From Thermosinus carboxydivorans Nor1 (GTDB taxonomy: Bacteria; Bacillota; Negativicutes; Sporomusales; Thermosinaceae): a DNA stretch of 43,440 nucleotides. The DNA lies in contig NZ_AAWL01000020.1 of NCBI RefSeq assembly GCF_000169155.1, positions 1 to 43,440 on the forward strand, in the 5' to 3' direction. The position numbers were made by a program, and so were the translations under genes. The notes beneath the pieces were generated by a model. The model saw only the letters and a program-made list of their open reading frames with translations. It was not told the origin of the DNA and ran no database searches. Shown here piece after piece: positions 14,204-16,155 of this stretch; positions within the stretch are counted from its first letter, which is position 1, and every line of letters starts with the position of its first letter.

Positions 14204-14758
14204 CTAAAACTGTACTTTCGGAACTTGTTTGGCGCCCTCTTCGGCCTTGAAATATTCCTTAGGCCCGAAGCCCAGCATGCCGGCAAAGATGCTGGTGGGG
14301 AAAGAACGGATCTTGGTATTGTACGCCTGCACGGCGTCGTTGTAGTCTTTTCGGGCCACAGCGATGCGGTTTTCCGTGCCGGACAGTTCATCCATCAGCG
14401 CCCGGAAATTTTTATCCGCTTTCAGATTGGGGTAGTTTTCCGCGATGACCAGCAGCCGGCTCAGCGCATTGTTCAGCTCGGCGTTGGCCTGGGCTTTGGC
14501 CGCCGGCCCCTGGGCGCCGGCCAGTTTCGCCCGCGCGTCCGCGACAGCCGCAATGGCCTGTTGCTCATGCGCCGCGTAACCCTTGACCGTGTTAACCAGA
14601 TTTGGTATCAGATCGGCCCGGCGCTGCAGCTGGTTTTCAATCTGGCTCCATTTGCCGTTAACGGTTTCATTTAAGCTGACCAGTCCGTTGTAACTGGAAA
14701 TGCCCATAATCGCCAGTATTACCACCAGAGCAATGACAATCAACGCCGTTTTGTTCAT
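14204..14758 (-). CDS. lemA: LemA family protein
   Basis: 184 residues. The N-terminal membrane anchor spans about residues 5-25. A long antiparallel helical bundle follows with the family signature YNGLVSLNETVNGKWSQIEN, QLQRRADLIPNLVNTVKGYA and AENYPNLKADKNFRALMDEL. It ends near FPTSIFAGMLGFGPKEYFKAEEGA. GGAGG is placed properly before the ATG. First gene of a LemA-TPM operon; molecular role unknown in bacteria. Confidence 0.93.
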   Translation of the reverse strand: MNKTALIVIALVVILAIMGISSYNGLVSLNETVNGKWSQIENQLQRRADLIPNLVNTVKGYAAHEQQAIAAVADARAKLAGAQGPAAKAQANAELNNALSRLLVIAENYPNLKADKNFRALMDELSGTENRIAVARKDYNDAVQAYNTKIRSFPTSIFAGMLGFGPKEYFKAEEGAKQVPKVQF

Positions 14759-14810
14759 GTTAAGTTACCTCCTCCTTTGTGTGCAGTATTGTTTTATGGT
14801 ATCCACTATT

Positions 14811-14840
14811 ATTTTACTACTAACCTGAACCTTTTGCCAA
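14811..14840 (-). promoter_or_regulatory. Possible sigma-A promoter of lemA
   Basis: Minus strand -35 TTGGCA (14835-14840) and -10 TAAAAT (14811-14816), spacing 18 bp, about 52 bp before the lemA ATG. Confidence 0.45.
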
Positions 14841-14851
14841 TATAACGAAGA

Positions 14852-14877
14852 GAGACGGTCGCCCGACCGTCCCTACA
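14852..14877. repeat. Perfect GC-rich palindrome GACGGTCG-CC-CGACCGTC type
   Basis: An 8-bp inverted repeat GACGGTCG / CGACCGTC with a two-base centre, followed by CCCTACA. I recall similar GTAGGGACGGTCGGGCGACC strings dispersed in other Firmicute genomes. It sits between lemA and the decayed array, has no T tract and is unlikely to be a plain terminator. Confidence 0.4.
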
Positions 14878-15330
14878 AAAAAATGGGCAAGAGCCCGCAA
14901 TGATCTACGCTACAGCCAATGCCGATCATTACATACCTATACGCAATCTTTCGACTACGCACAAGCATTACACAACCGACACTGACCTTTGCTCGACTAC
15001 CAGGGATACCTGCCGAACCTACTGCAATCTCCCGACTGCAATAGACCCATCTTAACGGTCTTCCGGATAGACCCTCCGGAACCCCTGACAGTCTTAGCTC
15101 GACCGCCACACATCCCTTTTGACCATACGACAACAGTTGGGCTGCCGCACAGCCTTACAAGACATATGGCGATCTGCCCGCCGACTAATGCCGAGCCTTG
15201 CGACCCGACACCAATCTTTGGCCGACCAATGCCGAACCCCACTTGAGATCCGACACCGGTCTTGGCTCGACCATTACGAACCCTTGCAGTCATATTATTA
15301 CCCGGATTACAACCGTCATTCATGGTAATT
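14878..15330. repeat. Decayed tandem array of ~40-47-bp units, no gene
   Basis: About 450 bp with no credible gene on either strand. The minus strand is G-rich and carries related blocks at roughly 40-47-bp steps: GTCGAGCCAAGACCGGTGTC, GTCGGCCAAAGATTGGTGTC, GTCGAGCAAAGGTCAGTGTC, and GTCGAAAGATTGCGTATAGG, with GGCATT or AATG joints. Two adjacent units give peptide-like echoes with a 15-codon step (GRAKTGVGSQ, GRPKIGVGSQ) in a frame that has no ribosome site. The units are too diverged for a CRISPR and have no constant repeat. It looks like the ghost of a minisatellite or of a repetitive gene. Confidence 0.55.
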
Positions 15331-15373
15331 TATACCATTAATTGGTCCTAGAAAATGGCAATCGGAAAGCAGA

Positions 15374-15580
15374 AACCGCGGAGATAATCATGCCATAAAT
15401 TGGCACCGCAAAGCATGAAAACTGTTATTCAACCACGGAGAATGCAGAGGTGCGATATTCATCGTGCGAAGAATTGAATAAAAAATTTTCTCCGCGTCCT
15501 CTGCGGTTCTATAAAATATCATCTTCCGCGACAACTGTCGCGCACGTTGCCCTTTGCGTGCTTGGTGTCCTTAGCGGTTT
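15374..15580 (-). repeat. Interspersed palindromic repeat, copy 3 (full, inverted)
   Basis: Inverted relative to copy 1, with all modules present: M3 TGCCA-TAAAT-TGGCA, arm B', M2 (GTGCGAT-ATTC-ATCGTGC, held by wobble pairs), arm B, M1 CGCGAC-AACT-GTCGCG and the purine arm. Its outer end GCGGTTT meets the stop codon of mobA. Confidence 0.9.
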
Positions 15581-16155
15581 TATTGCCTTAATTTTGCGAG
15601 GTCTTCCGGGGTATTGATATTGTCAAGCGTTTTCAGCTGCGGGTCAAACCGGCGCAGTTCAGCGGCGCTGATCTGCCGCAATCTGACCTTGGCGTAAAAG
15701 TTGAGCACGCGGTAATTTCCGTCGTGCAGCAGCTGCTCGATGAAGCTGAGGCAGTTTTGATGGTAGACGGCATGGAGCGGATGATAATAGCCGTCGATAA
15801 ACGGCACAGCCGCGTCAAACCCTTGCGCCGCCGCGGCCATATACGCCACGGCCTCAGTTGAGAGAAAGGGCATGTCGCAGGCGACAACAAAATTGTAGGC
15901 GGTAGCCGACGCCTTCAGCCCGGCGTGCATGCCGGCCAGCGGCCCGCACTGCGGGTACTGGTCCGGCACGACAGTCACGTCCGGCACAAGAATTTCCCGC
16001 CGAATATTGCTGACGACGATTAAATGGTCACACACCGGCGCCAGCCTCGCCAGCACGGTATGCAAAAGGTCGCTGCCGCTAAACGGCAGGGTGGCCTTGT
16101 CCCGGCCCATGCGGGTACTAAGCCCGCCGGCCAACACGATACCAGTAAGTTTCAT
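15580..16155 (-). CDS. mobA: Molybdenum cofactor guanylyltransferase
   Basis: 191 residues, nucleotidyltransferase (GT-A-like) fold. The N-terminal GTP-binding signature is GIVLAGGLSTRMGRDKATLPF (about 5-25). The QYPQCGPLAGMHAGL and VVACDMPFLS (Mg-binding Asp) motifs follow. It attaches GMP to molybdopterin, or is the closely related MobA-like enzyme for other cofactors. GGGGAG precedes two possible ATGs (16161 and 16155). I prefer 16155 for spacing (8 nt); the earlier one overlaps the uvrC stop as TAATG, so the two genes are translationally linked. No molybdoenzyme gene is in the window. Confidence 0.85.
   Translation of the reverse strand: MKLTGIVLAGGLSTRMGRDKATLPFSGSDLLHTVLARLAPVCDHLIVVSNIRREILVPDVTVVPDQYPQCGPLAGMHAGLKASATAYNFVVACDMPFLSTEAVAYMAAAAQGFDAAVPFIDGYYHPLHAVYHQNCLSFIEQLLHDGNYRVLNFYAKVRLRQISAAELRRFDPQLKTLDNINTPEDLAKLRQ

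Follow-up and report, generated by a model that had tools for sequence, protein, structure and literature searches.

The window analysed here is a stretch of 43,440 nt from Thermosinus carboxydivorans Nor1 (contig NZ_AAWL01000020.1). The region examined within it, positions 14878–15330, sits between a mobA-like gene and lemA, both on the minus strand and both recognized by Pfam on the neighbours, as an earlier note made from the sequence alone had named them. The minus strand of this region, from about 15286 to 14878, is a structured RNA gene of approximately 400 nt. The earlier note had described it as a gene-free, strand-asymmetric and decayed tandem array. Its account of a non-coding, strand-asymmetric and internally repetitive region without a match in Rfam stands, whereas the decay and the tandem array do not. 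The search for less decayed relatives found best matches that are 73–98% identical, with the copy of a genus relative (G001) at the upper end; of the 60 genomes searched, the window's own among them, 31 reach E ≤ 1e-9, and the base pairs are maintained among aligned copies, which rules out a decayed tandem repeat.

Anatomy and fold of the RNA

Folded at the window (427 nt), the minus strand has a minimum free energy of −222.6 kcal/mol (z = −14.8) and the plus strand one of −96.1 kcal/mol (z = −2.9), and among 20 copies the median z is −13.8 in the sense orientation vs. −1.1 in the antisense. This asymmetry arises because G·U pairs make up 32% of all paired cells in an alignment of 59 copies (A1), 18 pairs being G·U in at least 90% of them; a G·U pair works only on the transcribed strand, and the other strand therefore folds poorly. 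Shuffles made with our own scripts were mononucleotide ones, and those for folding and pair counts came from the respective procedures. The parts of the RNA are listed below.

14878–15286, minus strand: structured RNA gene, 5′ end at about 15286 and 3′ end in a U-run, the ends placed by the promoter-like site and the U-run
15292–14885, minus strand: conserved core in A1, from the 59 aligned copies and the extent of homology
15269–15285, minus strand: 5′ strand of P1, the closing helix of 17 pairs (paired in 99.4% of cells; two-sided change in 9 pairs)
14889–14905, minus strand: 3′ strand of P1, pairing with 15285–15269
15224–15261, minus strand: P2 hairpin (17 pairs, 12 with two-sided change)
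15180–15222, minus strand: P3 hairpin, GCC/GGC at its base and an AAA bulge (two-sided change in 9 of 14+3 pairs)
15101–15174, minus strand: P4 long hairpin (P4a 16 pairs, P4b 13 pairs; 15 pairs with two-sided change)
14991–15098, minus strand: P5, whose arm varies, and the GNRA-type hairpin P6 (two-sided change in 14 of 18+9 pairs)
14914–14987, minus strand: P7 long hairpin (P7a 16 pairs, P7b 15 pairs, GAAA loop; 17 pairs with two-sided change)
14877–14884, minus strand: U-run after P1, terminator-like by sequence

P1 encloses a multi-helix junction that holds P2, P3, P4, P5/P6 and P7, and the hairpin modules share the motif GUCG(A)GC(C/U)AAAGAY. GUCG(A)GC(C/U)AAAG is found at four places (15271, 15226, 15103 and 14997), and less strict versions of it at 15186, 15037 and 14956. 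The modules that share this junction motif are the blocks that had been seen as repeats. Their recurrence at about 45 bp is real: Tandem Repeats Finder reports a period of 45 (2.0 copies, 79% matches, at 15197–15283), and the internal similarity exceeds that of shuffles, the self-alignment score being 34 against at most 26 across 60 mononucleotide shuffles. A 32-nt repeat family with three copies (14968, 15197 and 15242) is explained by the motif-bearing 5′ strands of P2, P3 and P7, which make it up. The blocks are hairpins of one folded RNA. The G-richness noticed on the minus strand is likewise borne out by the base make-up of the 408-nt minus-strand copy (G 35%, C 19%, U 26%, A 20%).

At the 3′ end, at least six T occur in the 10 nt just after P1 in 92 of 130 copies vs. 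25 of 130 when the same count is made 60 nt downstream; P1 and the U-run would probably double as the terminator of the RNA. A small local hairpin of the window copy, GGGC-UCUU-GCCC (14886–14897), can compete with the P1 strand.

Covariation and distribution

The 59 copies of A1 (49 taken by pattern, 10 placed by match coordinates, truncated copies excluded) have a mean identity of 77%. RNAalifold predicted 141 pairs on A1, and over the 140 of these that were counted, 98.8% of 8258 cells are standard pairs. Two-sided change is seen in 76 of the 140 pairs vs. 37.8 in shuffles, and when the partners were slid along A1 as a control just 33–46% of cells were paired. The compensatory changes in A1 therefore exceed both controls, as in a conserved structured RNA in general, and the window copy retains all 140 pairs. 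A separate alignment of 52 distant copies (all distant-side copies within the length limits, a copy's side being taken from its record title or from the search in which the locus was found) has a mean identity of 53% and a minimum of 34%. It gave 151 pairs, 96.6% paired and 114 with two-sided change, the shuffled and slid controls having been run on A1 only and each consensus structure having been predicted from the same alignment on which its pairs were counted. The near-invariant residues of the distant set lie mainly in junction motifs and loops, and helix sequence varies freely. Selection is maintaining the paired structure at mean identities of 77% in A1 and 53% in the distant set.

Searching the 453-base region against the 60 genomes detected 43 genomes at E ≤ 1 and the 31 mentioned above at E ≤ 1e-9, one of these (G009) only through a partial match. 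The best matches typically cover region positions of about 12–408, and several come from other families within the class. One copy is present in the own genome, and the highest number of matches in a genome was 11 in this search. A scan of named genomes with a pattern of the 3′ hairpin only gave 67 stretches, all 67 of which are matched by the A1 profile. They come from the genera Sporomusa, Pelosinus, Anaerospora, Propionispora and Lucifera, and also from Acetivibrio mesophilus, Ruminiclostridium and several clostridial metagenome assemblies, the named carriers including Sporomusa ovata, Pelosinus fermentans and Acetivibrio mesophilus. The family occurs in many anaerobes that form spores. A set A2 comprises 52 of 71 non-redundant 3′ ends, degenerate and near-duplicate ends having been dropped by hand.

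A covariance model, R1, was built from P7, the 3′ hairpin only, and its E-values are rough. In the window's class R1 matches 38 of 300 genomes, with up to 13 matches in one genome; in the A. mesophilus class the figure is 31 of 391, 10 of the 31 having been known from their loci before, and in the A. mesophilus phylum 99 of 299. In several copies it also finds a second, weaker place about 165–305 nt upstream, which falls on P4 where it was located (L043, L056). Among the 21 new carriers of the A. mesophilus class, 20 loci were fetched (G496 left out) and all 20 match the A1 profile, L172 and L179 in part. In the phylum, 18 of the 20 fetched loci are nearly full length, one holds a 3′ part, and L209 lacks confirmation by the profile; the other 79 of the 99 carriers rest on R1, only G300 having been seen otherwise (as L117). 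Three copies of a Pelosinus metagenome assembly (L113, L122 and L134) are matched by the profile piecewise, in two or three parts each, and in L122 and L134 this looks like an insertion of about 100 bp.

Rfam 15 gave no match in the window at the gathering threshold, in agreement with the absence of rRNA and tRNA already remarked upon, and at E ≤ 10 the stretch 14700–15700 showed two chance-level matches, neither over the RNA. Three further sets of loci (15, 20 and 20) likewise gave no family of Rfam 15 over the element, so that an rRNA, a tRNA or another Rfam family was rejected as a candidate. That Rfam 15 lacks so heavily structured a family, whose 3′-hairpin model is found in about one third of the sampled genomes of a phylum, leaves a large gap in the catalogue of bacterial RNAs. 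We take the shape of the raiA motif RNA to differ from that of the RNA here. In excerpts of PMC11706538 the raiA motif RNA (ModT) is a structured RNA, widespread in Bacillota, with a link to sporulation; the RNA here resembles it as a structured Bacillota RNA of that kind, and is set apart by the lack of a match of Rfam over the element. OLE, ROOL and GOLLD are described in parts of PMC12286853 as bacterial RNAs of large size and intricate fold whose function is unknown or unclear, ROOL and GOLLD being encoded in phages and prophages. The RNA here is similarly large and complex, but no Rfam model matches over the element, and its copies, unlike those described for ROOL and GOLLD in that excerpt, are mostly in bacterial genomes, with three stretches in a viral collection in addition. 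No description of the RNA was found in the open-licence literature, a provisional result since supplements were not covered and an anonymous listed candidate is possible; the parts seen of PMC11109978, PMC8632094, PMC8040213 and PMC3789829 hold nothing matching it. Provisionally, the RNA family is new at the level of the family, structured bacterial RNAs as a kind being already known.

Upstream sites, sporulation and possible function

Most copies have GTATN-like and CATACTA/CATAATA-like blocks upstream of the 5′ end at near-fixed spacing, and in the window these correspond to two sites.

15316–15325, minus strand: −35-like block CCATGAATGA, sigma F/G-type, a position-conserved block upstream of copies
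15291–15300, minus strand: −10-like block TAATAATATG, aligning with CATACTA/CATAATA of other copies

The label “sigma F/G-type” is used because, according to excerpts of PMC7438776, the consensus sequences of sigma F and sigma G overlap in C. difficile; genes of small acid-soluble spore proteins (SASP) are given there among their targets. A promoter matrix was trained on 13 of 30 SASP upstream regions of relatives, namely those fitting the regular expression of the motif. With it, 41 of 87 RNA upstreams exceed the 99th percentile (6.8) of control and shuffled scores, and the median over the 87 is 5.3 vs. −3.8 and −3.0 for control and shuffled sequences. In 39 of these 41 the −10 block lies 7–10 nt before the profile start, and the spacer as our script measures it is 16 in 31 and 17 in 10 of the 41. 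When later loci are included the median becomes 3.5 (n = 119), with 7.1 on the side of the window's class (n = 71). The gene spoIVA is a sigma-E gene, and its upstreams, used as a further control, gave a median of 0.4 (n = 25); of 27 loci, two were set aside for their short flanks, and each of the others was scored by the better of two windows. CATAATA is matched at six or more of its seven positions by 54 of 71 upstreams on the side of the window's class and by 31 of 48 on the distant side, vs. 2 and 3 shuffled ones, where the motif and its interval were selected after inspection of the copies and related upstreams are not independent. A sigma F/G-type promoter is supported for the family as a whole, and is weak in the window copy.

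Among the 60 genomes, the RNA is present in 31 of the 44 with SpoIVA or SASP and in none of the 16 without (Fisher p 4.5e-7). SpoIVA is likewise found in 30 of 31 carriers vs. 250 of 360 other genomes in the A. mesophilus class (p 6e-4), and in 95 of 99 carriers vs. 155 of 200 others in the sample of its phylum (p 2e-5); these Fisher tests treat genomes as independent and ignore shared ancestry. From the promoter-like sites and the association with sporulation, forespore-type expression of the RNA is likely: RNA polymerase carrying sigma F or G would transcribe it in the forespore during sporulation, and the RNA may then be kept in the spore. Given the promoter type and the host range, a role should be sought first in spore biology; should this prove to be a spore RNA, one would have to ask what a large, stable RNA is doing while the cell is dormant.

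As to function, the RNA would act in trans. Its most likely role is that of a scaffold on which a partner would find several equivalent junction sites. This proposal is made because near-invariant residues repeat at the junctions while the helices vary freely; both the scaffold and its partner are speculative, and we put them forward tentatively, at somewhat worse than even odds. Taken together, we read the locus as a new, standalone, large RNA that would be expressed in the forespore and may be a scaffold, and assign this reading, in which transcription and function are inferred, a probability of about 0.78. Doubtful, on the other hand, is the broader idea of an ancient and widespread class of large RNA that belongs to the endospore programme of the Firmicutes, on their Clostridia and Negativicutes side. 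Such an RNA would be produced in the forespore, would fold into a multi-helix body having several equivalent junction sites and, by itself or together with a repeated protein partner, would form a particle that the dormant spore carries.

Several observations weigh against our main reading. Among 14 SpoIVA-bearing relatives searched again (13 without the RNA in the first search, together with G009 and its divergent copy), 13 have no copy even at E ≤ 1, and the copy-less SpoIVA genomes include nearly complete ones of one or two contigs; the RNA is therefore dispensable for sporulation as such. No SpoIVA match was obtained in 1 of 31 and 4 of 99 carriers. The promoter of the window copy scores just 0.6 (5.3 in the genus relative, L002), 46 of 87 upstreams fall below the control threshold, the distant-side median is 1.3 (n = 48), and one spoIVA control reached 12.7, the maximum of that set, so that sigma E is separated only in part. 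The longest open reading frames (ORFs) slightly exceed those of shuffles (median 56 vs. 44 amino acids), and no partner protein was found, no systematic search for one having been made.

Some of these points would fit a structured RNA gene that is not specific to spores, expressed generally under stress or in stationary phase, for which the promoter resemblance and the co-occurrence would reflect phylogeny. Sporulation genes are ancestral in these groups, by which the co-occurrence is confounded, and more than half of the 87 upstreams fail the 99th percentile with the SASP matrix. Against this, the −10-like block stands at a near-fixed distance with CATAATA matched on both sides of the family, and the RNA is missing from every one of the relatives that lack both SpoIVA and SASP, so that we regard this alternative as improbable.

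Another alternative competes with the scaffold step only, namely that the RNA is a base-pairing small RNA (sRNA) of the same type as Bvs196, with spore mRNAs as its targets. Excerpts of PMC9147052 present CsfG and Bvs196/S547 as forespore-specific, independently transcribed Bacillus sRNAs under sigma F and sigma G, and give Bvs196 a length of 294 nt and a reported energy of −82.3 kcal/mol. The likeness of these sRNAs to the RNA here is limited to promoter type and co-occurrence with sporulation; compared with Bvs196, the RNA here is about 400–500 nt with the much lower energy given above for 427 nt, and has internal hairpin modules and another host range. It is set apart from CsfG and Bvs196 by their description and not by sequence comparison. 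An antisense role is less likely because the conserved residues are mainly in helices, junctions and loops with little conserved single strand, and the freedom of helix sequence to vary in distant copies disfavours a fixed antisense region; we give this possibility the same small weight as the preceding one.

Genomic surroundings, mobility and coding potential

The neighbours of the copies are mostly unrelated, 180 of 241 neighbour clusters being singletons (clusters that include truncated copies and some places fetched twice), and no neighbour gene is common to the copies across the loci compared beyond a few syntenic groups. Such scattered neighbours fit with an RNA acting in trans. In six genomes of four families (G000, G001, G004, G009, G035 and G052) the RNA lies between lemA-TPM and a gene that we presume, from its sequence, to be uvrC, and in three of the six mobA stands beside the latter; lemA, TPM and mobA were named by Pfam on the window. 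The copy of G009 is strongly diverged, yet its predicted fold shows the same closing helix. This conserved place, together with the fold in G009, supports vertical inheritance of the window copy.

In G031, seven full copies at dispersed places share a mean identity of 97.7%, vs. 77% on average in A1, which suggests recent spread or concerted evolution. On contig 1 of the same genome, at about 2.455–2.465 Mb (L061 2900–13050), seven truncated copies of the 3′ part lie 1–3 kb apart between ORFs that resemble, by eye, C-terminal fragments of a CdiA/FHA-type competition toxin and are accompanied by small neighbour genes, a layout as if the RNA gene had served as a recombination edge during the addition of cassettes. 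Similar truncated copies occur in a second Pelosinus-like genome (L065 and L066 of G049). A collection of viral contigs holds three stretches (L238, L239 and L240) with the conserved hairpin motif, which are either viral DNA or host flank. Phage or plasmid DNA was rejected as the nature of the region, the phage collection giving no match and the single match in the plasmid collection falling in lemA.

The multiple copies per genome, the near-identical set of G031, the truncated copies among toxin cassettes and the viral-collection stretches are what one would expect of a selfish or mobile DNA repeat, such as a miniature inverted-repeat transposable element (MITE), a repetitive extragenic palindrome (REP) or an integron-like element, with the hairpins as by-products. 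The RNA shares with REP/MITE-type intergenic repeats that it is multi-copy, hairpin-rich and intergenic. It differs from them in its asymmetric G·U pairing, with a median antisense z of −1.1, in the promoter-like site and U-run that flank most copies, in the orthologous place kept in six genomes, and in its compensatory evolution, so that a mobile repeat is very improbable.

Seven ORFs of at least 40 amino acids overlap the region, including one of 108 amino acids on the minus strand at 14997–15323. The four longest of the seven, the 108-amino-acid ORF among them, have no Pfam match even at E ≤ 1, the other three not having been submitted, and by these tests the region is non-protein-coding, as had been supposed. 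A protein-coding gene in disguise, which this ORF and the slight excess of ORF length over shuffles might favour, deserves next to no credence and was rejected, given the lack of a Pfam match, longest ORFs that range from 19 to 122 amino acids among 102 copies, and sequence changes that track base pairing.

Two further inverted repeats lie close to the gene in the window. A 10-pair palindrome at 14851–14874, directly past the 3′ end of the RNA, scores as terminator-like. Upstream of the RNA, a 20-nt imperfect inverted repeat with 96 nt between its arms extends over 15369–15504, and a similar sequence is also present in the 120 nt upstream of the copy in the genus relative.
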